From a virus: 25,761 nt of DNA. The notes beneath the pieces are model-generated. The model saw only the letters and a program-made list of their open reading frames with translations, had not been told where the DNA came from and searched no databases. The stretch lies in the IMG/VR virus record IMGVR_UViG_3300005095_000153, positions 1-25,761 of that record. One strand, given 5' to 3'. Positions 3 through 22,675 of the stretch are shown here, piece after piece (position 1 is the stretch's first letter; each line of letters begins with the position of its first letter). The position numbers were made by a program, and so were the translations under genes.

Positions 3-356
3 AAGGCGAACGGAAAGCTTGCCTATACCACATCTGAAGCTTCAGAGAAGAGTATGCTTTTAACAAAGGGGGTAGACGATATTCTTCCTTTCAAAAAGAC
101 AAAGAAAGTATGGACTCTTGAGCAACTAAAGGCACTTAAAAAAGAGGAGCTTACAGACAAATATGCAGATGTAGTTTTCGTTCTTCACACAGAGGGAGGG
201 GAGATTGTGACAAAAGAAAAAAAGGTATCTAGAAAGAACAAGAAAGGGGAAAAGAAAGTTCTTATAAAAACAAGATATACCATGGCGGACAATCTTCTTT
301 CAGCAAAGAGAAGTCTTATACAAAACAAAGGAAAGGTATTTGTAGAATACAGATAG
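3..356 (+). CDS. Partial internal-protein-like gene (5' end outside window)
   Basis: The frame is open to the left edge, so the start codon lies outside the window; the ATG at 54 is internal because readable codons continue upstream of it. The first visible residues contain YTTSEASEKS, followed by a basic beta-rich stretch ending KVFVEYR. The same pattern (FTTSEASEKS, about 35 residues, a Lys-rich strand, then a V/I-x-EY strand) occurs twice in the 549-residue protein at 11950-13599, so this is a third copy of that domain. The function is unknown. Because the longer paralogue begins with a candidate prohead-protease site, I infer a capsid-internal protein. The gene is on the plus strand and ends just before a GAAA-loop hairpin. 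It is Lys-rich and less AT-rich than the tail genes. Confidence 0.75.
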   Translation, partial: KANGKLAYTTSEASEKSMLLTKGVDDILPFKKTKKVWTLEQLKALKKEELTDKYADVVFVLHTEGGEIVTKEKKVSRKNKKGEKKVLIKTRYTMADNLLSAKRSLIQNKGKVFVEYR

Positions 357-7446: not shown

Positions 7447-8265
7447 TTACACTTTAGGAAGTTCTATGTGATATCCATTATTGAACAATTTTGCTCTATC
7501 TTCTATTGATGGATTAAAATTCATTGGATTGAATTGTTCCGGTATATCTATCACAACTGTTTTATCCCAATATGCTTGTGATAGATGCTTTTCATTTGCA
7601 CCCATATATAATAGATTCGCAAGTGTACCAATGTACTGGATGATATTACCAAGTTTACCTTTAGATTCATTTTTCGATTTAAACATAAACCCAATAATAT
7701 CATCGTCTTCATTAAAATATTTTATGTTATAGTTGGCTATCACACCCCCATCACAGTATATTCCACCGTTGTATTTAAACGGAACAAATATAATTGGTAT
7801 AGCACATGACGATGCAACAGCATCAACTATTTTCATATGTGGGGCGGTGTCGTTGGAGAATGTTTCAACCACCCCTTTTTTTAATTCAGTAACAGTACAT
7901 ACCAAATTCTTATTTAGGTCTCTGAATCTTATATTGGGATCGATCCCCTGACCTTTTATTATTGATTTTATTAATTTTCTCATATTATTCAGTGAATAAA
8001 AACCAAATTTAGTGAATATATTATACATTCCAAGTGGATTGTATATCGGCATTATTGATGTATAATCAGTGTGTAATATATCGTTTGTAAATTTATGTAA
8101 ATCAAACTCCAATGCTAATCCCATCGCAATAATAGATCCAAATGATGTACCAACAAATGTATCAACAGAATCAAAATCAAAATTCACATCCATCAATTTT
8201 TGTATGGTGCCACCCATGGATATACCAGCCATGGCTCCACCTTCAAATACGAGACCCTTTACCAT
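7447..8265 (-). CDS. Patatin-like phospholipase
   Basis: The 272-residue product starts MVKGLVFEGGAMAG; AAGGA lies upstream and its first 7 nt overlap the end of the gene before. It carries the complete patatin set: Gly-rich oxyanion loop (EGGAMAG, 8-14), nucleophile elbow GTSFG (39-43, Ser41), the conserved AVASSCAIPIIF helix (149-160) and the DGG motif with catalytic Asp172. Patatin-family enzymes hydrolyse acyl esters of membrane phospholipids through a Ser-Asp dyad. There is no signal peptide, so it acts in the cytoplasm or is carried in the virion. It is coupled to a gene whose product has a candidate prohead-protease site. Use in lysis or host takeover is inference only. Confidence 0.88.
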   Translation of the reverse strand: MVKGLVFEGGAMAGISMGGTIQKLMDVNFDFDSVDTFVGTSFGSIIAMGLALEFDLHKFTNDILHTDYTSIMPIYNPLGMYNIFTKFGFYSLNNMRKLIKSIIKGQGIDPNIRFRDLNKNLVCTVTELKKGVVETFSNDTAPHMKIVDAVASSCAIPIIFVPFKYNGGIYCDGGVIANYNIKYFNEDDDIIGFMFKSKNESKGKLGNIIQYIGTLANLLYMGANEKHLSQAYWDKTVVIDIPEQFNPMNFNPSIEDRAKLFNNGYHIELPKV

Positions 8266-8765
8266 TCCCAATCCTTCATACCATTACTTTCATGATATTT
8301 ATTTATGATGTTTAATCCTCTATCAGATAAAGTAAAATAAACATTTGTGCCATTTATATCAACAATCATGGATGTTCCAAGATTCAAATTTGAATCCATT
8401 TCAGCAATAAATTTATCAGGAGATTTTTTCATTAATCCCTTTACCACCATTAAATCATCAGATTCGTATAACGATAATGCACCAAGATGCATGTTAACAG
8501 TGTATTTATTGGTTGGATTAATATCCCATATTTTTTCAAGATAACTTTCTTTATCATGGATACCTTCACCCAATAAATAGTCTAATATTGCAAAATAGTT
8601 GCCTTCTTCAAATTTTATTTTACTTGTTGATGCATATTCATACATTTGATGTACAGTTGGATCTGTTTCGTCCAATGAATCATACATCCCATAATCTTCT
8701 TCTCTATAATCATCATCCAATGCTGTGTTGCCATAAAATGACTCATCTATTCTTTTAATACCCAT
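8259..8765 (-). CDS. Putative capsid-internal protein with N-terminal cleavage site
   Basis: 168 residues, with GGAGG 5 nt before the ATG. The N-terminus MGIKRIDESFYG contains IDE|S at 6-9, matching the prohead-protease consensus (hydrophobic-x-E, then small residue) and close in placement to the capsid-targeting peptide of T4 internal proteins. An acidic stretch follows (DDDYREEDYGMYDSLDE), then a helical body, with a C-terminal NVYFTLSDRGLNIINKYHE that looks like a winged-helix wing and helix. It ends overlapping the patatin gene. The function is unknown; packaging into the head is inferred from the motif. Confidence 0.65.
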   Translation of the reverse strand: MGIKRIDESFYGNTALDDDYREEDYGMYDSLDETDPTVHQMYEYASTSKIKFEEGNYFAILDYLLGEGIHDKESYLEKIWDINPTNKYTVNMHLGALSLYESDDLMVVKGLMKKSPDKFIAEMDSNLNLGTSMIVDINGTNVYFTLSDRGLNIINKYHESNGMKDWEW

Positions 8766-10211: not shown

Positions 10212-11333
10212 TTACGATAGAATTACTGGTTCAAGTTTATAAAAGTCGGTTTTGATTATGGTATAAAACCCACTTCTTTTGTTTGCACTTACGTCATAAA
10301 AACCATGTACATCTGTGTGTTTATTCCATGCCTTAACTAATGCATCAACACCAAAACTTTCGCACAACTCTATTTGAAAATTTCTTACTTCACCATCACG
10401 TACCATCTTGGCAATATTAACCACATTTCTTCTTAATGAATCAATATCATCTTCAACAAATACATAATCTGTTGCCCAATAATAAAATTCAGTTGGATCG
10501 TGTTCAAGTAAACTTCTTAATATTTTTATTATCTGTGCCGTTCCAATAACATCATTCACACTGTCCGTTGCTGGTTTAAATTTGGTTTTATCTATATAAG
10601 TACTAACAACATGTTTACCATATTTCATTGCCGTATCAAGAGACCCAAAATATATGCCAATACCAAGTAGATTAAACCCACCAAGATTCATGTTTTTTGA
10701 TAATATTTTTGTTGTACCATGATTGTCACCATGAAACACCTGTTTATATCTACCACTATTTTTTGATTCATTAAATCTGGTTTTAACAACGGATTTTTTA
10801 TTGAACCTACCAGCTTTTTTACTCTCGTTAATTGAGTATGGTTCATTCAATTCAGTCCAACAGCTCTCTGGAGACCAATTATCAACAGAATTCTTAAATG
10901 ACTTATGATTATATCCGACAAACACATCATATCTGTTTATATCAACAACAACATATTTGGTCGTTTTACCATTGTTTTTATTCCACCAATCAACAACATA
11001 ATCGATTCTTGTTTCAAAACCAAGTGATTCAACCATATCATCGTCATCATATGTACTTAATTCGTTGTCCGGATCATCAATAACAATTAAATTTCCGGAT
11101 GCTATTAATCCTGCAACATGTGACATTAATTCAAACCCCATAGGATCTTGTCTGTAATTTCCACAATCTGTCATTGCGTATGAGTTTTGTTTGCTTAACA
11201 CATTAACAGCTCTCATATATGTTTTCTTGTTTGCTCTACCAATGTTTTTGAAACCACTCGATTCCGCCAATTGTATCCATAAAGCCATTGCTACAATGTC
11301 TCCCTTTGATATTTTGCTTAAGTTTAAGTCCAT
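10212..11333 (-). CDS. PARP-like ADP-ribosyltransferase with cleavable propiece
   Basis: 373 residues, AGGAGG before the ATG. The C-terminal half carries VFHGDNHG (199-206), then LLGIGIYFGSLDTAMKYG (222-239) and VVSTYID. This H-G...G-x-Y-F...A-x-x-Y arrangement is the NAD-binding core of H-Y-E (PARP/diphtheria-toxin type) ADP-ribosyltransferases. The third catalytic Glu is not obvious; the likely last strand reads SGFYTIIKTDFYKLEPV. Just before the domain are two sites resembling prohead-protease targets, SINE|S (170/171) and RFNE|S (189/190). Cleavage would release a ~184-residue enzyme from an unrecognised N-terminal domain. T4 also packages an ADP-ribosyltransferase (Alt), but of the R-S-E type. 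An injected host-modifying effector is inferred. Confidence 0.72.
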   Translation of the reverse strand: MDLNLSKISKGDIVAMALWIQLAESSGFKNIGRANKKTYMRAVNVLSKQNSYAMTDCGNYRQDPMGFELMSHVAGLIASGNLIVIDDPDNELSTYDDDDMVESLGFETRIDYVVDWWNKNNGKTTKYVVVDINRYDVFVGYNHKSFKNSVDNWSPESCWTELNEPYSINESKKAGRFNKKSVVKTRFNESKNSGRYKQVFHGDNHGTTKILSKNMNLGGFNLLGIGIYFGSLDTAMKYGKHVVSTYIDKTKFKPATDSVNDVIGTAQIIKILRSLLEHDPTEFYYWATDYVFVEDDIDSLRRNVVNIAKMVRDGEVRNFQIELCESFGVDALVKAWNKHTDVHGFYDVSANKRSGFYTIIKTDFYKLEPVILS

Positions 11334-11368: not shown

Positions 11369-11512
11369 TTAATTTATATCTATCAAATGATGAATTGAAC
11401 ATGAACACATATTTAATTTTGTTTTGAATTGAACAGGTTCTATGTAAACTTGTTCAACAACAATTTCACCCGAACCAATCTTACCAAATCTACCTTTGAT
11501 TTTTGTGTCCAT
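11369..11512 (-). CDS. Small hypothetical protein, 47 aa
   Basis: The start MDTKIKGRFGKIGSG follows GATGGGGGTAAC. An upstream GTG in frame has no ribosome site and lies across a late promoter. A short beta-like body (GEIVVEQVYIEPVQFKTKL) ends in MCSCSIHHLIDIN, with a C-x-C...H-H cluster that might bind metal. No family is recognised. Its stop overlaps the late promoter of the ADP-ribosyltransferase gene. Confidence 0.55.
   Translation of the reverse strand: MDTKIKGRFGKIGSGEIVVEQVYIEPVQFKTKLNMCSCSIHHLIDIN
11371..11378 (-). promoter_or_regulatory. Late promoter for ADP-ribosyltransferase gene
   Basis: TATAAATT on the minus strand (7 of 8 to TATAAATA), 38 nt before the ATG and overlapping the stop codon of the upstream 47-residue gene. 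Confidence 0.55.
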
Positions 11513-11532
11513 GTTACCCCCATCAACATTTT

Positions 11533-11539
11533 TATTTAG
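11533..11539 (-). promoter_or_regulatory. Late promoter for 47-aa gene
   Basis: CTAAATA on the minus strand, 21 nt before the ATG; the TAA is also the stop of the 76-residue gene. Confidence 0.6.
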
Positions 11540-11766
11540 TTTACTCTCATTAAACACTCAACGTTTTTTATATCGAATTTTCTGCCAATTGATTTATACA
11601 ATCTATATGGTATGTGGTAACGTATTTGTTCTATTCTTGATTTAGATTTACCATGTTTGTACCCATCAACATATATCATTTTCATCACATCAAGCTGACC
11701 CTCCCATCCTATTCCTCTATTTGGATGGTCTTTGCTAGTCCATGGCATTTTATCAAACCAATACAT
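11536..11766 (-). CDS. Basic hypothetical protein, 76 aa
   Basis: The frame reads MYWFDKMPWTSKDHPNRGIGWEG, then a very basic stretch (YKHGKSKSRIEQIRYHIPYRLYKSIGRKFD). There is no clear ribosome site before either the ATG at 11766 or the MPW codon, so the start is uncertain. A TATAAATG late-type promoter lies 38 nt upstream and a late promoter overlaps the stop. The basic charge would suit nucleic-acid contact, but I do not recognise the family. Confidence 0.5.
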   Translation of the reverse strand: MYWFDKMPWTSKDHPNRGIGWEGQLDVMKMIYVDGYKHGKSKSRIEQIRYHIPYRLYKSIGRKFDIKNVECLMRVN

Positions 11767-11869: not shown

Positions 11870-11950
11870 TTAGTCAATACCCTCCAACATATTAACCAAC
11901 TCTTCAGCTCTATCCAAGAGTTGATCATAACTCATTTTATTAATATCCAT
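11870..11950 (-). CDS. 26-residue micro-protein
   Basis: The ATG overlaps the stop of the 549-residue gene (TAATG), with GGAG 6 nt before it. The product MDINKMSYDQLLDRAEELVN... is acidic and would form one amphipathic helix. The same TAATG coupling joins clear genes elsewhere (14836, 14168, 21215), which supports translation. The region between it and the 76-residue gene (11767-11869) holds only the late promoter at 11804. Confidence 0.5.
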   Translation of the reverse strand: MDINKMSYDQLLDRAEELVNMLEGID

Positions 11951-13599
11951 TATTTACTCCATGATTTTATAATGTCTGATAATTGATCATCATAGTTGTT
12001 AACCTTTCTCTCAAACATCATTGTTAGCTTCATCATTTCTTTTGCTTTACCTGAATCCAACCATTTATTAAGTCCTTTAAATACTTTCGAATTTTTATTA
12101 CCTTTCTCAGCAATATCCAATACCATATCAAACAGTTCTTTACCAACAGTTAATTTTTCAATGATATGACCAACATTAAATTGTGATTGTGTTGATACAA
12201 TCTTCTTTTTAGATACTTTTTTATTTGGTAATTGATGATCAGGATCTAGTACATGTTCTATTTTTTGTCTACCTAATTCATCGCCCTCTTTATAAATTCT
12301 CATATTAACAACTGTTTTACCTTCATTCTCATAAACATTTATGATCGCTTTTCTGAAAATATATCTGTATCTATAATTCGGTTTATAAATATCAACATAT
12401 GTCAACCCATTATCATCAGTGAAATCATATGATTCATCTAATTCAAAATAAATCCCCAATGCTTTTTCAAATCTTTTTCTTGAAATACTATGCACAGGCT
12501 TTATTGGTTTTGTTGATTCTTCTTGTATTTCAGACAAAAATCTGTTTTTGAATGTATCTGCATTTGATAATACTCTACTAAACAGTATTTTCTGTACATC
12601 ATTTGATATACCACCCTCAACAACTTCAAATTTATCATTGACTTTTTTAACTGATTCTGTTTTTATTTCTTTTTCTGGTAGATATTCAACTATTGCTAAT
12701 TCATCATTATGTAATAGTTTAAGAGACATTTTGGCTTTATTAAAATCAAAAAAGATGTAAAATTTTGTTTTATTAACTTTCCTACCCCTAATGTTTTTCT
12801 GAACAACTTTGAAATAAACTGTACCTCCACCATAACTTATTACATAGATACTATTTGGACTTTTTGCTGATGTAACTTCACCTTTTGGTTTATAAGCTAT
12901 AATCTCATCGGCTAAGGTTCTTATCATTGATTGTTCGCTTGATTTACTAGTTGTAAATGCTTTTTGACCTTTTGATTTTAATACGGGTTTACCCTTTATC
13001 ATTGCCAATCCAAGTCTAAAATCCAAATGCTTTCTTTCTTCATCAACTCTTGACATGGATGTAATAGGTTCATATGCCTCATTAACCAAATTGTATGCAA
13101 GACCTAGATGTGACACCAACGATCTAATATTCTTTTTATTTGTCCCAAATTCTTTATTTAATTCAAATAGATTGCCTGATATTTTCGTGAACCCATCATC
13201 AATGGTATACACCTTTTTATTTCTACCCTTTGACTTCCTATATGCACCAGTACTTGTATACTCAGTAACAATAAGCTTTTCTTCAAATTTTGAACCAAGT
13301 GATTTGACCATATTTCTTGCTATAGACATTGATTCATAAATGTAATATTTCTTTCTTTTTTTCTTTAATGTGGTAAATGGTGACATATCTTCTCTTGTTA
13401 TCACAAACAATGAATGCTCTCCACCTGTACCAATCTCCATAACAGCAATTTTATCAGCCATTAGTTTTAATGCCGATTTCTCACTTGCTTCACTAGTAGT
13501 GAATGAAAACCCACCACTTCTTTTATCAATTCTGCTATCACCAATTAATGGTACACCAAGTCTAAATTCGGTATTAAAAGCTTCATCAAACTTTTTCAT
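11950..13599 (-). CDS. Tandem-domain putative capsid-internal protein, 549 aa
   Basis: The start MKKFDEAFNTEFRLG is chosen for its GGAGG ribosome site; an upstream in-frame ATG has none. Two copies of one domain are visible: residues ~11-115 (FRLG..., FTTSEASEKSALKLMADKI, KKYYIYE, LIVTEY) and ~193-306 (FRLG..., FTTSKSSEQSMIRTLADEI, KFYIFFD, LAIVEY). Each copy is preceded by a candidate prohead-protease site: FDE|A at 6/7 and VNE|A at 174/175 (RVDE-E at 187/188 is weaker). LDE|S at 389/390 precedes a third, different C-terminal region. The gene at 3-356 carries the same domain. This reads as two internal proteins fused head to tail. Function unknown; Lys-rich character fits DNA contact inside the head. 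Confidence 0.7.
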   Translation of the reverse strand: MKKFDEAFNTEFRLGVPLIGDSRIDKRSGGFSFTTSEASEKSALKLMADKIAVMEIGTGGEHSLFVITREDMSPFTTLKKKRKKYYIYESMSIARNMVKSLGSKFEEKLIVTEYTSTGAYRKSKGRNKKVYTIDDGFTKISGNLFELNKEFGTNKKNIRSLVSHLGLAYNLVNEAYEPITSMSRVDEERKHLDFRLGLAMIKGKPVLKSKGQKAFTTSKSSEQSMIRTLADEIIAYKPKGEVTSAKSPNSIYVISYGGGTVYFKVVQKNIRGRKVNKTKFYIFFDFNKAKMSLKLLHNDELAIVEYLPEKEIKTESVKKVNDKFEVVEGGISNDVQKILFSRVLSNADTFKNRFLSEIQEESTKPIKPVHSISRKRFEKALGIYFELDESYDFTDDNGLTYVDIYKPNYRYRYIFRKAIINVYENEGKTVVNMRIYKEGDELGRQKIEHVLDPDHQLPNKKVSKKKIVSTQSQFNVGHIIEKLTVGKELFDMVLDIAEKGNKNSKVFKGLNKWLDSGKAKEMMKLTMMFERKVNNYDDQLSDIIKSWSK

Positions 13600-13626
13600 T
13601 TTTCCTCCAGTATAAAACCTCATGCG

Positions 13627-14168: not shown

Positions 14169-14836
14169 TATTCCTCCGTTGGTAAATATTCTTGTACAAA
14201 TGTTTTACCTATTATTCTTATTATTGAACTATAATTTATCTTTTCAATGGAAGCATTGAATATCCATACAGGTTCAACAGTTATTGTGAACGAAGCAAAT
14301 ATTATATCGTCATCTTGTTCTGATAAATCTTCTGCACCATCGTCTATTGACCCAAATTCATATACAAATCCTGTTGATACAGGTAACATGTCCAATATTG
14401 GATATTTCACATCTATTGATCTTTGTTGGTGATATAATAAATCGAGTTGTTCCATTATCATTAACATTGTTCTCATTTTACCTGTGCCGATTATACCATT
14501 AAATGTTAATCTTTTTGGTACGCCTGATAATAATTTATTACCTGTGTCCCTAAACTCTGCTTTATTGAGTTTGATCATATCTATTTCATCTATATCTTCA
14601 TATCCACCTGACATAGATAATGATATGGCTGGTAAAAAGTTTTGTATTCTGAAATTTTCATCATTTTTGCGTTCATCATAATATAACTTTGATAGAATAT
14701 CTTTTCTACCATTTGATAAACCAACTCTCAACTGTTTTCTATTACCTTCAAAATCATAATATCTGATATTATTGAATAAATCTTGTAATACGGCTGATGT
14801 AACAGTTTCTACAATAAAATTATAAGGTGCATTCAT
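14168..14836 (-). CDS. Tail sheath stabiliser/completion protein, gp15-like
   Basis: 222 residues. The N-terminus NFIVETVTSAVLQDLFNNIRYY leads to KQLRVGLSNGRKDILSKLY, then FLPAISLSMSGGYED, PKRLTFNGIIGTGKMRTMLMIMEQLDLLYHQQRSIDVKYP and a final ASFTITVEPVWIFNASI strand. This matches the order in T4 gp15: an 'RVPITYASKEHFM' strand, 'LPRINLHL', a 'P...Y.L.I.....D....VEQILPYF.P' helix and a 'W.LTFEV.GW..P' strand. Gp15 forms the hexamer that caps the tail and joins it to the neck. T4 gp15 is 272 residues. The start overlaps the stop of the lipoprotein gene (TAATG). Confidence 0.75.
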   Translation of the reverse strand: MNAPYNFIVETVTSAVLQDLFNNIRYYDFEGNRKQLRVGLSNGRKDILSKLYYDERKNDENFRIQNFLPAISLSMSGGYEDIDEIDMIKLNKAEFRDTGNKLLSGVPKRLTFNGIIGTGKMRTMLMIMEQLDLLYHQQRSIDVKYPILDMLPVSTGFVYEFGSIDDGAEDLSEQDDDIIFASFTITVEPVWIFNASIEKINYSSIIRIIGKTFVQEYLPTEE

Positions 14837-16548
14837 TATAGATCCTCACATGTTGAAATATCATTAACTTGAACAGATTTTTCCGTATTGTCATCAAATC
14901 TACTCAATACAACGTCGGTTTGGTCTATATCACCAGAAACACATATTTTTGTAACAGACAGATCAACAAAATATTCTGTTCCAACATGTGGTTCATGCAC
15001 CAGATAACCACCTATAAACGGAACCAATATATCTCTATTGTGTTTATCTTGTTCTAGTGATATTAAATCTAATTTAAAACCATCTGTTGTTACAACCATA
15101 CCATCCCCACCGTCTGATATACAATCTGTGCAACTGTCACCATAAACATACCCATGGTTTATTAATTTATGTTTATTGCCCGTAGTATCAATAGGTACAA
15201 ACAACACAACTCTTTTTTTGCTACCAAGGTCTGTTCTAAACGGCATACTGAACATATCTCCTGAATCATTAAATGATGTGGTATCTCTCCAACCCATGCT
15301 GTCACCATATCTATGTGTATGTATCTCATTATGTCCTGTTAGTGTAGCTGTAAGCATACCCATCCCATCATTAACAATGTTGATGTTTATAAATTTAAGT
15401 GTTTTGTCTGATGTGTTCCATATGACAACTATTGCATCTTCCTCCCATGCACCTGAACCATTATTAGTGTGGAATGCATGAGATGACATTATAATATCCC
15501 CTGATTTAAATGATACTCCAATTTCACTTTCTAGTCCAGAATTAACATAATCACTCATGGAGTTAACGGTGAGTTTATATGGTGCGTTATTATTGAAGTA
15601 AAACGTTGAGCGTACATCTTCACCATATGGAAATGAAGCAATTGCACCATGTAATTTATTGGATCTGTCTGCACCCGTGCCATCCGCACTATCTGTTATT
15701 GTTATAACTAAATTTGCACCTGATATATGGTCAAACACTATATCATGTACCGTCCCACCTGCTGACCCGTTTGAATGCAATGTTGCCGTGTGTTCAGATG
15801 AATGTTCACCATTATATCTAAATTCAAAATTTGACATATTAACTGTTTTTGTGTTTTCATGAACAAAATCAACTGATCCTGTGGTTGTTGAGTAAAAATA
15901 TGTGGACACAACGAACTTGTCGTTGTATATCCTTACCGTCCATATTCGTATATCCGTCTGTGTTGCATCATTTTGTGCTATCCATGTCCCTATGTATATT
16001 TTTGATGGTGAACCCGTTGTTGCACCACCATAACCAAGTGAATAGGGGTCAGTGAAATCCACACCCCCCTTCATGTTTTTAAACGATACATATATGGCTT
16101 CGGTGTTGTCTGACACACGCCTGCCAACAATGACATCTATTAATACGTCGTCTTTTTTGCTCTTATATGTTTTTGTGTCAAATGGGACGGTGAAATCACC
16201 ATGCACACCCTCTTGTTCACTAAGCATTGATTTATTTAACACTATTCCACGTGGATTTTTTATTACCATGTTGGTATGAATGTTTAAACCTAACATATTT
16301 GTTTTGAAATCAGAGTCATTAATACCTGATTGATTATGCCAATCCATATGTTCATTAAATTTTGTTAATGTATCAGGCATTGTATCCGCCAATATCAATT
16401 TTGTGTCATCAAATACTGTCATTTCATCTCCCTGTATATTATAGACAATTTCGTCATCTTGTCTTATTTCAGGTGTATTTAGTTGATTTGGCTCACCACA
16501 GCTTATTAGTATTAATATTGTGATTATTGTGATTATTGTGTGTTTCAT
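14836..16548 (-). CDS. Large predicted lipoprotein, 570 aa
   Basis: The ATG (MKHTIITIITILILISCGE) lies 5 nt after GGAGG. Residues 4-16 are hydrophobic and end in LISC, a fitting signal-peptidase-II lipobox with the lipidated Cys at 17. Gly at +2 allows outer-membrane sorting. The rest is beta-rich, with many Asn/Thr/Ser/Gly and acidic residues (e.g. SKIYIGTWIAQNDATQTDIRIW) and paired cysteines near the C-terminus (GDSCTDCISDGG). Such a protein would sit in the host envelope rather than the virion. Phage lipoproteins such as T5 Llp block superinfection, but those are small. It lies in the gp15-like operon, which is odd. Function unknown. Confidence 0.75.
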   Translation of the reverse strand: MKHTIITIITILILISCGEPNQLNTPEIRQDDEIVYNIQGDEMTVFDDTKLILADTMPDTLTKFNEHMDWHNQSGINDSDFKTNMLGLNIHTNMVIKNPRGIVLNKSMLSEQEGVHGDFTVPFDTKTYKSKKDDVLIDVIVGRRVSDNTEAIYVSFKNMKGGVDFTDPYSLGYGGATTGSPSKIYIGTWIAQNDATQTDIRIWTVRIYNDKFVVSTYFYSTTTGSVDFVHENTKTVNMSNFEFRYNGEHSSEHTATLHSNGSAGGTVHDIVFDHISGANLVITITDSADGTGADRSNKLHGAIASFPYGEDVRSTFYFNNNAPYKLTVNSMSDYVNSGLESEIGVSFKSGDIIMSSHAFHTNNGSGAWEEDAIVVIWNTSDKTLKFININIVNDGMGMLTATLTGHNEIHTHRYGDSMGWRDTTSFNDSGDMFSMPFRTDLGSKKRVVLFVPIDTTGNKHKLINHGYVYGDSCTDCISDGGDGMVVTTDGFKLDLISLEQDKHNRDILVPFIGGYLVHEPHVGTEYFVDLSVTKICVSGDIDQTDVVLSRFDDNTEKSVQVNDISTCEDL

Positions 16549-16588
16549 GATCACCTCCATTAAAACTGATGAAAAACGCTTCCATCAT

Positions 16589-16637: not shown

Positions 16638-17531
16638 TTATAGAACAACATACATTATAAATTCAAATGAATCTATATCTATACATTTAATGTTCCATTC
16701 CATACCACTTTTTTCTGCGTAGTCAATAACCTTTTTAAAATCACCACTGTATTTGTTACCGTGATTGAATACCCCTTTCAATAAATAGTTCCCTTCATTG
16801 AATACAACTTTTAGGGTGGTATTAAGTTTATCAACATCTTTATATAGTTTTGAAAGATATGTTGCTCTTTTTTGATCCTTTTTCATATGGAATTCCAAAA
16901 TAAACCCATCAACATCACGACCCTCTCCTTCATAGTCCACCATTGTTTCTTCAATAATATTCATCTCATACCCATAAATGTCTGTAAATACCGCCTTCCA
17001 TTTTGGTATGAATTTTTTATATTCATTAGGAAATGCACCATCTATAATGGTATATTCAATATACATTTTCATGCCAGTTTCTTTTTCAAGTTCATCAATC
17101 TCTCTTTGTATTCTCTTTCTATCCAATGCTTCATCAACTCTACCAAGTTTAGTTTCATTTTTTCTGGATTCATTTATTGAATGTCTTAATCTTGGCTTGG
17201 TCTTTGTCTTTGATTCATTAACTAAACCCAAAACAAGATTTAATTTTTTCATTATTTTTGTTAATGAGTATGTATCTTCAAGAAAACTTTCATCGACCAA
17301 ATCTTCAATGTGAACCCTTACAATACTACTTATTTGCATGGATATCTTCTTTCCACCAGCCAATTCAAATAACATTGTTGAATTACCATTTGTATCCCTA
17401 GATAATCCCCTAACATATACATCATTTGATATTTCAAGGGGTGAATCTAGTATAAATGCCTTTCCTTTTTTTAAATATCCCTTTCTACTCTCATTGAATC
17501 TTTTAAGAGTACCTTCTCTTTTAATTTCCAT
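16638..17531 (-). CDS. Polyprotein-like protein with clustered protease sites, 297 aa
   Basis: The start MEIKREGTLKRFNESRKG is chosen for GAAGGAG 6 nt upstream, but the frame stays open for about 75 more codons (see 17532-17772). Candidate prohead-protease sites occur at FNE|S (14/15), VDE|S (81/82), VNE|S (106/107), INE|S (121/122), VDE|A (134/135) and FNE|G (246/247). Full cutting would give a ~67-residue beta-rich peptide, several 13-25-residue basic peptides and a C-terminal domain of ~110-160 residues. The central part (KTKTKPRLRHSINESRKNETKLGR) is strongly basic. T4 scaffold and internal proteins are similarly processed, but this many sites in one product is unusual. No enzymatic motif is seen. 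Confidence 0.7.
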   Translation of the reverse strand: MEIKREGTLKRFNESRKGYLKKGKAFILDSPLEISNDVYVRGLSRDTNGNSTMLFELAGGKKISMQISSIVRVHIEDLVDESFLEDTYSLTKIMKKLNLVLGLVNESKTKTKPRLRHSINESRKNETKLGRVDEALDRKRIQREIDELEKETGMKMYIEYTIIDGAFPNEYKKFIPKWKAVFTDIYGYEMNIIEETMVDYEGEGRDVDGFILEFHMKKDQKRATYLSKLYKDVDKLNTTLKVVFNEGNYLLKGVFNHGNKYSGDFKKVIDYAEKSGMEWNIKCIDIDSFEFIMYVVL

Positions 17532-17772
17532 ATTAACTCCTTCATTTATGCTGTGTTTTATACCAAACACATAATTATTTAGTTGATTCGTCAAAACAAC
17601 ATCAACCATAGTTTCAGACCCAGATTTTTGTAACATTATAATTGGTCTATCAGTATAATGTTTTTCTATTGAATTAACAAGTCTATTTGCCTGTTGGGGT
17701 GAATGTTGTTCCTTTTTCAGGATACAATTTATTAAATACTTATAATTGTATCGGCTCTATTGGTTTTGCCAT
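17532..17772 (-). other. Possible hidden 5' coding extension with 10-codon ORF and hairpin
   Basis: The 258-nt gap before the sheath gene contains ATG at 17772 behind a run of eight Gs; it reads MAKPIEPIQL and stops (TAA at 17740). The +1 frame is open from 17756 to 16638 and reads like protein (KYLINCILKKEQHSPQQANR...). It is in frame with the 297-residue gene. A 9-bp inverted repeat GATACAATT/AATTGTATC (17721-17752) spans the stop. A late promoter CTAAATA (17576-17582) lies closer to the downstream ATG. Either a +1 frameshift joins the two parts, or the extension is a decayed or misread start. Confidence 0.35.
17576..17582 (-). promoter_or_regulatory. Late promoter for 297-aa gene
   Basis: CTAAATA on the minus strand, 45 nt before the ATG at 17531. 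It supports a start at MEIK even though the frame is open further upstream. Confidence 0.5.
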
Positions 17773-17789
17773 AACCCCCCCCTATTAAT

Positions 17790-20285
17790 TTATCCTACTT
17801 TAACACCTGAAGTGAATATTAGATGTATTGATTTCATTTTGCCCTTATATAATATTGTTATATCTGTTGTTACCAACTCATCTTGAATATCTCTTTCAGT
17901 GTCAATTGTAAATTCAACGATATCTTTACGCAATACATATGGTTTCAAATAATCATTAACTGAATCCCTTAATAAACTTCTATCTGCCGGTGTGTTGTCC
18001 TCAAATCTAAATGTTTCAACTCTGTATCTTAATTCATTTTCAATCATATTTGCAAGCATTCTAGTAGACGCATCTTTATATGGTGAATTTGTATTAAGCA
18101 TTGTCTGGTCTGCATTTAGATAAATTTTACCACCTGCGATTGCTTGTACCGGATTCAATAGTCTAACATATAATTCATTTGCATCTATCTTATCAATAGG
18201 AACAAATAATACCTTATTATATCCACCAAGTACACCCCTAACAGTACCTGCTGCTGATTTACTTCTGCCGTGAGTTCTAATAGTTTTAATGATATTATCA
18301 AGTAATATAACACTAACCGGTAAAACAATATCATCACCATTGTCCTCTGTATCCGTAACAGTAACATATGTTGAAAACACTCTATATTTATCAATATCAC
18401 CACTTATCTTGAATCCACCTCTATCAGACCAATCAACAAGTTTACTTTGGACATAAGCTGTGTCAAAAATACCACTGTATGGTGCACAGAATAAACCCAA
18501 TGTATCAAGTTTTTTATCTTTCTTCAATAGGTTGTTATATACACCCTGATTTAAGGTTGTTAATTCAACGTTTGTATTCTTACCGGTACCTGTAACAACA
18601 ATTGGTGTATCCACATTTTCATTTGTAAATGGTTTGTATGCTTCAGCAATATCATTCATTGATATTGTTCCATCCGCCCCATGAGTTAATTTAAAACTAA
18701 AATTAAATCTTGATCCATCTGTTGTAGTTGTATTCATGAACACGGATATCAATGGATTATTATTTTTAGTTTTCATTTCAATGTTATACTGATTTCCATC
18801 ATGGTCAATCGCTATTGATGAATCATTTAATGACACAATCATTTGTTTAACAAGTAATCCATCTGTTGCAATAATCAATACTTCATGTGATTCAAGCACT
18901 CTTGTTTTAATAGCCTTTGTTAATAGTGGCGAATTGTTAACAAAATCTGATCCATATATCTGAACCTCGATATCATCACCCCATACACCAGCCGTATTTG
19001 CTATTACCATTATTGAATCACCAACCAACGCCATTGAGGTAGATAATCTGTTTTTAAATTCAATATCATTGATATCATATAATCCAGTTGATGAACCATA
19101 ATAAACACCATTTGATACGAAATCAACATCTTCTTCATAAACCATATTTGATAAAGGTAAACCCTTGTCTGTCATCGGTAAATGCTCGCCTTCAGAACTT
19201 TCTGTGATTGGATATGTTGATGTAACGGTGCCTAATACTTGCTTGAATATCTGACCATCTGTGAATTGTTCATATGTTGGTGAACTATATTCAAGTAAAG
19301 ATCCACTTTGTGTGATATTAATTATCTGTGAAACTTTAATAAATGTACCACCAATATCATGTATCCCTGTCATGTCAACAGGTATCAATGAATCATCAAT
19401 CTTAAGTGTACCAAAATAATTAACCATGCCCATTGTTTGTAAAGTCCATGAATTTCCTGCAACTTGAGTTATATTATTTGGTGCATTAGAAACTATAGGT
19501 GAATCTGTTTGAAACCATAAAAATGTTGTATTCACATCTTCCACAACATCAAGGATAGTTATGATTTGTTCAGCACCCAATGAATTAACAAATTTATGAA
19601 CAGGTGTACCATTAATTTCTCTGATAGCACCCAATGTGAATAAATCTGTTATTGCTGATGCACCGGCTGATGGGTCTTCTATTGATAGATTAACACCAAC
19701 TTCCTTTGATGTAAATTTAATGAAATTCCCATCTAATTCCGCTGTAACAGGACAATCAAACAATGAATTAAATGCACTTACAATTGCATCCCCATCTACT
19801 GTTCCTGAAATATCAACATCATAGATTGCTCCACCATCAATAACTATACCAATAAAACCTGCTCCAGCATGTCCACCGGAAATATCCATGTCACCATCAA
19901 TAACAGCATTTCTTTTTGTTAGGTCAATTTGATCAGCAAAGGTATCAATTTCAACCTTATATGAATTTTTGTTTAATGCACTTAACCCAATATTTGCATA
20001 CGAGTTTTTTGTGCCATCAATTTGGAATGCTCTTGACACAAGCATTTTATTTGTTGAATTAAGCATGGTCTTAACCATGTTAAAACTACCCTTTGTTGAT
20101 GGTTTTGTTCCACCAAACACTGTTCTTAAATCAGTAACGTTCTTAATAGGTATTGGTAAACCAACATACCCTCTTTCAAATATACCTGCATACGCTACAT
20201 TGAGAACTGTATTTTTCTCATTAACAGGAGTTTTTAAGTCTCTCTCTGTGATGTATACGTCTGGTAATTGCAATATTTCAGCCAT
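17790..20285 (-). CDS. Tail sheath protein, gp18-like
   Basis: 831 residues; the start MAEILQLPDVYITERDL is chosen for GGAGGAGCAT before it. The N-terminus (PDVYITERD, AYAGIFERGYVGLPIPIKNVTDLRTVFGG, TMLNSTNKMLVSRAFQ) and C-terminus (NPVQAIAGGKIYLNADQTM, ASTRMLANMIENELRYRVETFRFEDN, LRDSVNDYLKPY, DIQDELVTTDITILYKGKMKSIHLIF) have the typical sheath handshake strands and fold. Sheath subunits stack around the tail tube and contract on infection. T4 gp18 is 659 residues, so this one has ~170 extra residues, probably as surface insertions in the middle. A late promoter lies directly upstream. Confidence 0.93.
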   Translation of the reverse strand: MAEILQLPDVYITERDLKTPVNEKNTVLNVAYAGIFERGYVGLPIPIKNVTDLRTVFGGTKPSTKGSFNMVKTMLNSTNKMLVSRAFQIDGTKNSYANIGLSALNKNSYKVEIDTFADQIDLTKRNAVIDGDMDISGGHAGAGFIGIVIDGGAIYDVDISGTVDGDAIVSAFNSLFDCPVTAELDGNFIKFTSKEVGVNLSIEDPSAGASAITDLFTLGAIREINGTPVHKFVNSLGAEQIITILDVVEDVNTTFLWFQTDSPIVSNAPNNITQVAGNSWTLQTMGMVNYFGTLKIDDSLIPVDMTGIHDIGGTFIKVSQIINITQSGSLLEYSSPTYEQFTDGQIFKQVLGTVTSTYPITESSEGEHLPMTDKGLPLSNMVYEEDVDFVSNGVYYGSSTGLYDINDIEFKNRLSTSMALVGDSIMVIANTAGVWGDDIEVQIYGSDFVNNSPLLTKAIKTRVLESHEVLIIATDGLLVKQMIVSLNDSSIAIDHDGNQYNIEMKTKNNNPLISVFMNTTTTDGSRFNFSFKLTHGADGTISMNDIAEAYKPFTNENVDTPIVVTGTGKNTNVELTTLNQGVYNNLLKKDKKLDTLGLFCAPYSGIFDTAYVQSKLVDWSDRGGFKISGDIDKYRVFSTYVTVTDTEDNGDDIVLPVSVILLDNIIKTIRTHGRSKSAAGTVRGVLGGYNKVLFVPIDKIDANELYVRLLNPVQAIAGGKIYLNADQTMLNTNSPYKDASTRMLANMIENELRYRVETFRFEDNTPADRSLLRDSVNDYLKPYVLRKDIVEFTIDTERDIQDELVTTDITILYKGKMKSIHLIFTSGVKVG

Positions 20286-21215: not shown

Positions 21216-22675
21216 TAGTCCTCCTTCTCAACAAACCACCAATAACCCTCTTTGGATTCTTTTATTATTTGTTTTTTAGTTTTCTTTATATCGTCCTCGG
21301 TGAGTCCAAATAATCCAGACAGCACCTGTTTAACTGAAACCAATGGAAATCTATCTGGTTCCTCTTCTGTAGGCATACCCATTATTGGCTTTAATTCATC
21401 AAGTGTTTCAGCCATTAATTTATATTTTGTGTATTTCAAAACTCTTTCTATATGTTCGTCTTCAGAAAATTCAAATGTAATAAATGATTTCATTTCATCT
21501 ATTTCTTTTTGTTTGATCCCACTTTCAAGCATATGATCAATGAACATTTGTTTGTTTATAAATGAAAATCTATACCTTAATTTCATATAATATCTTCTGA
21601 AATCTCTTTCGTCTTGAGTCATTTCTTCGATATTATCACCAACTTTTATATCACCACCACCATCATCTGAATCCATTAATGATTTTGGTATTTGCATTGA
21701 ATTATTTAGATCATTAACAAACATGTTAACATCTTCTATGTCAGACACATTGACATCACCACCAACTGTATCTAGTTCTGTATTTTTATCACCATGTCTA
21801 CTAAACCAAAAATTTTCAGACATGAGCATTTGACTTGCATTTGCCACTAATGTATCACCATCAAAAAACCTTTCTAAATTATATTCATTTTTATATCTGT
21901 TTATCAAGGAATATGCTGTATCAGGATCCATTGTCCCAACATCTATGTAAATAGCATATCTTAATGGTGCACGTACAACTCTGTGTATCAATAATGCATT
22001 CTTTAACATATTAAGCTCATAGGCGGCTTTCATGGAGTCATGTAAAAATGATACCGGTGTTATACCATCATATTCGCCTGATGTAGCATATATAATATCA
22101 TCATTATCCACCTCTATGAATTTTTTTGCTTCAAAATCGTATGCTTCCCAGATATATGACGTTCTATCCGATGATATTTTCTTTCTTATATTATATGGGT
22201 GCAATATATCATAGTTGATAATTTTCTTTTTATCATCTCTTATTTTCCTTATATACATTCTTCCATCAATGAACCACTGTCTGAACATTGCTTCAACATC
22301 ATCATTTAAATCATCCATTTTTGTTAGATATTCTTTATATGATTTGTAATATTTTTCCAGATTAGAATCACTTATAGTGTGTGGTTCCCTGAACTTTAGT
22401 TTCATTATGGCATCGGTGTATGTATTGACTATAACATGGTTGACTATTTTTCTGATTCTAGTTGAAACATCCGTGAATGTAGCCATGGTTCTGTATCTCA
22501 ATATAAGTTCTTTGTCATCGAAGTACTCATAATATTTTATGTTGCTATATGATCTGTTTGAGACACCACCCCCACCACCATTAAGCATATTGTCATAATC
22601 AGAACGAATTTCCACACCCTCATCAATTCTTTTTGTTTCTGTAGCTATATCATTTCCATTTCTGGTAAATTTCAT
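21215..22675 (-). CDS. Portal protein, gp20-like
   Basis: 486 residues. The start MKFTRNGNDIATETKRIDEG is chosen because GGGAGG lies 7 nt upstream and the ATG overlaps the stop of the metallophosphoesterase gene (ATGA). Diagnostic stretches are FTDVSTRIRKIVNHVIVN, YDILHPYNIRKKI, a VRAPLRYAIYIDVGTMDPDTAYSLINRYKNEY segment (T4 gp20: 'FYIDVGNLPK.KAEQYM..IM.RYKN'), EMTQDERDFRRYYMKLRYRF and a C-terminal helix. The portal dodecamer sits at the head vertex and passes DNA. T4 gp20 is 524 residues. RIDE|G at 17-20 fits the prohead-protease pattern, so the first 19 residues may be trimmed. Confidence 0.9.
   Translation of the reverse strand: MKFTRNGNDIATETKRIDEGVEIRSDYDNMLNGGGGGVSNRSYSNIKYYEYFDDKELILRYRTMATFTDVSTRIRKIVNHVIVNTYTDAIMKLKFREPHTISDSNLEKYYKSYKEYLTKMDDLNDDVEAMFRQWFIDGRMYIRKIRDDKKKIINYDILHPYNIRKKISSDRTSYIWEAYDFEAKKFIEVDNDDIIYATSGEYDGITPVSFLHDSMKAAYELNMLKNALLIHRVVRAPLRYAIYIDVGTMDPDTAYSLINRYKNEYNLERFFDGDTLVANASQMLMSENFWFSRHGDKNTELDTVGGDVNVSDIEDVNMFVNDLNNSMQIPKSLMDSDDGGGDIKVGDNIEEMTQDERDFRRYYMKLRYRFSFINKQMFIDHMLESGIKQKEIDEMKSFITFEFSEDEHIERVLKYTKYKLMAETLDELKPIMGMPTEEEPDRFPLVSVKQVLSGLFGLTEDDIKKTKKQIIKESKEGYWWFVEKED

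Follow-up and report, generated by a model that had tools for sequence, protein, structure and literature searches.

Gene setting and reading frame

The window analysed here is the whole of a 25,761-base fragment recorded in IMG/VR. It contains an ORF of 297 amino acids with six candidate cleavage sites for a prohead protease (Table 1). The first-pass annotation had described a polyprotein-like gene at 16638-17531; these coordinates are retained, with the gene placed on the minus strand (17531..16638), the plus strand of the same interval carrying many stops. The ATG at 17531 is preceded by a good Shine-Dalgarno sequence (GAAGGAGTTAATATG), and the codon usage along the whole 297-aa frame agrees with that of the other genes of this phage. 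Upstream of this ATG the frame keeps a coding-like codon usage as far as about 17,700, and a short frame behind a run of eight G (MAKPIEPIQL and a stop) ends just before the coding-like stretch. This region (17532-17790, minus strand) resembles a longer, split or decayed gene start. The true start of the six-site ORF is thus uncertain: the gene may extend beyond 297 aa, or it may have been joined by a gene that is decayed or separate. A seventh match to the site motif, KHSINE|G, is located in the upstream extension; its reading as a Shine-Dalgarno artefact is made uncertain by the upstream codon signal, and its reading as a real site is kept as well.

Matches to PHROGs of T4 type were obtained in the window for the portal (phrog_213), sheath (phrog_23), sheath stabiliser (phrog_227), wedge (phrog_219), neck (phrog_211), tube (phrog_45) and late sigma factor (phrog_234). 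Relatives in IMG/VR were sought via the sheath, the portal and a second suspected head protein, and only the portal reached any, with no more than about 30% identity to any relative found. The T4-type matches together with this low portal identity indicate a T4-like myophage, deeply diverged, as the source. No gene for a prohead protease, a scaffold or a major capsid protein was seen on the 25.8-kb fragment. The six-site ORF sits between the tail sheath gene and a lipoprotein-like ORF and is flanked by tail genes, not within the interval between portal and major capsid genes (the gp20-gp23 head-core cluster). A 574-aa ORF adjoining tail genes (14836-16560, minus strand) has a signal peptide and a lipobox-like ILISC|G and is a putative phage lipoprotein. 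A patatin-like phospholipase (7447-8271, minus strand; Pfam E 1e-28) is encoded within the virion-gene cluster of this T4-like phage.

No homologue of the six-site protein was found by tblastn against 50,697 phage records, in IMG/VR or in ten related genomes and records. Searches against Pfam, PHROGs and PDB gave no significant match and no similarity to gp22, gp67 or gp68; no Pfam domain scored above its cut-off, and no recognisable effector domain was found. Weak matches to a GTF3C1 winged helix and to Gp54 fell below the curated cut-offs and were rejected. A comparison of the domains of the protein with other window proteins revealed no convincing similarity.

Table 1. Coordinates of the six-site ORF, its predicted parts and matches to the site motif in other genes of the window (the bar marks the putative cut).
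Feature	Position	Strand	Basis
Multi-site precursor ORF (putative), 297 aa, begins MEIKREGTLKRFNE|S	16638..17531	-	SD GAAGGAG; codon signal
Putative 14-aa capsid-targeting-like leader, MEIKREGTLKRFNE	17490..17531	-	position, motif and resemblance to leaders of window genes and relatives
Candidate site 1, FNE|S, cut after residue 14	17487..17498	-	motif
Candidate site 2, VDE|S, cut after residue 81	17286..17297	-	motif
Candidate site 3, VNE|S, cut after residue 106	17211..17222	-	motif
Candidate site 4, INE|S, cut after residue 121	17166..17177	-	motif
Candidate site 5, VDE|A, cut after residue 134	17127..17138	-	motif
Candidate site 6, FNE|G, cut after residue 246	16791..16802	-	motif; alone in C-terminal region, weakest candidate
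28-residue linker, sites 3 to 5, SKTKTKPRLRHSINE|SRKNETKLGRVDE, site 4 within	17130..17213	-	sequence
C-terminal region, residues 135-297	16638..17129	-	no family match
In-frame upstream extension to next ATG (17636)	17532..17636	-	coding-like codon usage
Seventh match, KHSINE|G, in upstream extension	17538-17549	-	sequence
MGIKRIDE|S near N-terminus of 168-aa ORF 8259-8765	8739..8750	-	motif
MKKFDE|A near N-terminus of ORF 11950-13623, after GGAGGAAAAATG	13579..13590	-	motif
Inter-domain VNE|A in ORF 11950-13623, SRVDE|E shortly after	13075..13086	-	motif
INE|S (SINE|S) in ORF 10212-11333, first of tandem pair	10821..10832	-	motif
FNE|S (RFNE|S) in ORF 10212-11333, second of pair, 19 residues on	10764..10775	-	motif
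IDE|G (KRIDE|G) near portal N-terminus	22616..22627	-	motif

Candidate cleavage sites and predicted fragments

The 297-aa protein contains exactly six sequences of the form [F/V/I]-[N/D]-E|[S/A/G], and these are the six that had been listed by the first-pass annotation, all of them present; confidence is lower for sites 2 and 6 than for sites 1 and 3-5. The motif was defined after the data were seen, and in the form [FVIL][ND]E[SAG] it occurs 6 times against 0.14 expected, a count reached by none of 20,000 shuffles of the protein, while the looser [FVILM]xE[SAG] occurs 6 times against 1.28 expected by shuffling (P = 0.001). In a look-elsewhere control, in which each shuffle was allowed to pick its own best two P2 residues, six sites were never reached. 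The published form of the T4 gp21 site, [L/I]xE (PMC9026906), is not enriched in the protein by the same shuffling (6 against 4.7 expected, P = 0.32), nor is [LI]xE[SAG] (1 against 0.69 expected), so that the multi-site reading depends on a lineage-specific preference for [FVI][ND]E. Since the protease and major capsid genes lie off the contig, we infer the cleavage specificity: the protease of the source phage would prefer [F/V/I]-[N/D]-E|[S/A/G].

The sites could be thought a product of chance or composition in an unrelated late protein that is rich in N, D, E, K and S and undergoes no processing. This is very unlikely: the search for homologues was negative, site use is read from the sequence and the T4 consensus shows no enrichment, all of which would suit such an explanation, but the shuffles never reach six, the motif recurs at the N-termini of neighbouring proteins, and the calibration with T4 and 115 loci given below also counts against it.

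Full cutting would yield pieces of 14, 67, 25, 15, 13, 112 and 51 aa, from the N- to the C-terminus. The first of them is a short N-terminal leader that ends in a candidate site and, when compared by eye with the capsid targeting sequence (CTS) of T4, shares with it only basic residues, an aromatic residue and E|S. The short segments between the clustered sites had been described as very basic, which is true of peptide 107-121 (pI 11.1) but not of peptide 122-134, which is near neutral (4 K/R, 3 D/E, pI 8.3). The proposal that the gene encodes several small basic head peptides is a conjecture: only one predicted excised peptide is strongly basic, the other pieces being near neutral or of folded-domain size. 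A single-sequence AlphaFold2 model of the whole protein had a pLDDT of 38, too low to rely on; in this low-confidence model the 67-aa piece is beta-rich, sites 4 and 5 are in coil and the linker between sites 3 and 5 is mostly coil, and at such a pLDDT the exposure of sites 2 and 6 is not readable from the model.

The arrangement of the sites also bears on how many of them are used. In T4 the internal proteins are cleaved close to their ends (PMC9026906), site redundancy is documented in giant-phage propeptides (PMC10052503), and sites 2 and 6 may be situated in folded regions, so the protein might be an internal protein of IP/Alt type with a single propeptide, in which only FNE|S-14, and perhaps the linker, is used, the remaining matches being redundant or unused. 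Such limited processing is improbable, however, as the presence of three near-consensus sites within 28 residues suggests their use, as do similar pairs of sites in two other window proteins.

Recurrence of the motif in the window and in other T4-like phages

Outside the six-site ORF, the strict motif has nine matches among the listed proteins of the window, four of them within the first 25 residues (P = 0.007), namely MGIKRIDE|S, MKKFDE|A, an MFNE|S reading and KRIDE|G of the portal; it is absent from the sheath, tube and baseplate wedge proteins. In ORF 11950-13623 the sequences LVNE|A and SRVDE|E fall between two copies of a repeated domain. An MFNE|S can be read near the start of ORF 11369-11557, the gene start being uncertain there. 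The portal match aligns with the conserved DGxVEI position of gp20, which it may simply reflect, and it is possibly no cleavage site.

The repeated domain (..FTTSEASEKSAL.. and ..FTTSKSSEQSM..) is present in two copies in the 557-aa protein of ORF 11950-13623 (minus strand) and recurs in the cut ORF 3-356 (plus strand; blastp E 1.5e-5); no homologue of it was found elsewhere. The C-terminal part of the protein of ORF 10212-11333, which follows the tandem sites, has by eye the look of an ADP-ribosyltransferase (FHGDNHGTTK...GIGIYF) and would as such fit an Alt-like injected enzyme, but Pfam, PHROGs and PDB gave no support for this assignment, and single-sequence AlphaFold2 modelling reached a pLDDT of 33, too low for use.

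As a control, sites were counted in T4 proteins. The counts are clearly raised in gp22 (10 against 3.0 expected) and gp21 (5 against 1.0), less so in gp67 (3 against 0.6) and gp23 (6 against 2.3), and at or below chance in the sheath, tube and portal proteins gp18, gp19 and gp20. For calibration, 2,314 ORFs of at least 60 aa were taken from 115 loci, most of them T4-like head and tail regions, and at least five [FVILM][ND]E[SAG] sites were found in only two of them: the gp22 scaffold of Aeromonas phage GomatiRiver_11 (locus L001) and an 839-aa modular protein on IMG/VR contig 3300032268 (locus L076, 6134-8653, plus strand). The first-pass view that so many sites in one ORF are unusual is thus borne out for the [hydrophobic][N/D]E|[S/A/G] motif, by the shuffles and by this count.

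The 839-aa protein lies between the portal and an ORF that resembles gp21 by sequence, begins with a CTS-like MKTLNQIIKE|A, and is built of modules separated by junctions of the VDLDE|G/A and KPSLNE|A types, with LDE|S occurring as well; as a candidate head polyprotein of a phage it is, by its sequence, cleaner than the six-site ORF. Three of its modules are near-identical. Leaders in other T4-like contigs include MKTFKDFMTE|G, MKSFKQAFSTSITE|A and MIKSFSDYLQE|S, the last of which opens a 399-aa protein (L132, 13325-14524, plus strand) with nine loose sites against 1.9 expected. In the same 399-aa protein there is an FNPPxxxH motif that looks nucleotidyltransferase-like, and a protein of Methylophilales phage Melnitz-3 (L085, 923-2875) resembles it in both start and motif.

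In site density the nearest protein to the six-site ORF is gp22, and gp22 and gp67 are cut to multiple fragments, most of which leave the head (PMC9026906). The ORF might thus encode a disposable core or assembly protein like gp67, gp68 or gp22, with sites whose sole role would be to have it broken up and the head emptied ahead of DNA packaging, and with no functional fragment. This is considered unlikely: the C-terminal region, some 112-163 residues long, could remain intact, as its single internal site is isolated, three sites out of six are grouped in the linker instead of being spread, and the gene is located outside the gp20-gp23 cluster.

Comparison with known systems and proposed processing

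What is directly seen is that the sites exist, that they are enriched, and that they recur in the neighbours within the window and in other T4-like phages' head proteins. It is fairly likely, on this evidence, that the 297-aa protein is a late virion precursor from a T4-like phage, that it enters the prohead core, and that a gp21-type protease cuts it there at several sites. It is probably a multi-site substrate of such a protease, an orphan head precursor resembling known ones. The precursor reading of the first-pass annotation is partly supported, in the form of multi-site prohead-protease processing, by indirect evidence: the enrichment, the motif of the neighbours, the T4 control and a rarity shared with gp22 and the L076 protein.

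In T4, internal proteins enter the core by means of a short leader, the CTS, and are then trimmed by gp21, while cleavage breaks gp22 and gp67 into multiple fragments (PMC9026906). Like gp22 and gp67 of T4 (Straboviridae), the product of the six-site ORF is small and carries several xxE|[A/S/G] sites, many more than expected; unlike them, it has [FVI][ND] at P3-P2 where T4 has mainly [LI]x, three of its sites are clustered in a linker, and no sequence similarity was detected. The T4 proteins IPI-IPIII and Alt also have a short N-terminal leader ending in xxE|[A/S/G] and a mature part that diverges fast, but they receive one or two cuts only, and the leader of the six-site protein, compared by eye, does not appear to be the T4 CTS. 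The L076 protein shares the [hydrophobic][D/N]E|[S/A/G] grammar (LDE|G/A/S, LNE|A), and differs in being larger, in its tandem repeated modules and in its location in the head-core cluster, with no detected similarity; it is known from sequence alone.

In the giant phage SPN3US long propeptides are removed by several cuts, and the cleavage motif, A-x-E, also departs from the T4 form (PMC10052503). The inner-body and ejection proteins of phiKZ and SPN3US are alike in that a gp21-like protease cuts their propeptides at several E| sites, and unlike in the A-x-E motif of SPN3US, the long N-terminal propeptides and the giant-phage lineage. The polyvalent proteins (Iyer et al. 2017, PMC5512222) are likewise multidomain late-region proteins, thought to be packaged and often processed before delivery; they have recognisable enzymatic domains, often a zincin peptidase, whereas none was found in the six-site ORF.

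The cleavage, the location in the head and the fate of each fragment, as we infer them, would be as follows. The basic N-terminal leader (MEIKREGTLKRFNE) would dock the protein in the scaffold core, like the T4 capsid targeting sequence. After assembly of the shell, the protease would take off the leader and excise the 107-134 linker at the three closely spaced sites. The N-terminal beta-rich piece (residues about 15 to 81 or 106) would thereby be separated from the C-terminal region (135-297); one or both of these large pieces would remain with the DNA, perhaps to be ejected into the host, and the small peptides would leave or stay bound. By analogy with T4, where most core fragments and propeptides are lost (PMC9026906), the short excised pieces may be lost too.

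The ORF might even encode a true polyprotein, giving at least two functional, separately packaged proteins (the N-terminal beta-rich piece and the C-terminal domain) together with a DNA-binding peptide, as part of a wider strategy in which cleavable linkers join head cargo in the source phage (ORFs 11950-13623 and 10212-11333) and in some further T4-like phages (L076); this is possible, though somewhat unlikely.

Multi-site processing is already known for gp22 and gp67 of T4 and for head proteins of giant phages, and the six-site ORF adds an orphan example. If the reading as a multi-site prohead-protease precursor is true, the counting of protease-site grammar, as the T4 and 115-locus calibration suggests, would find fast-evolving internal head proteins, free of detectable homology, in uncultured phages, and such proteins are often anti-defence cargo. 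It would also mean that gp21-type proteases of different lineages drift apart in their P3/P2 preference, and that one gene can deliver several cargo domains.
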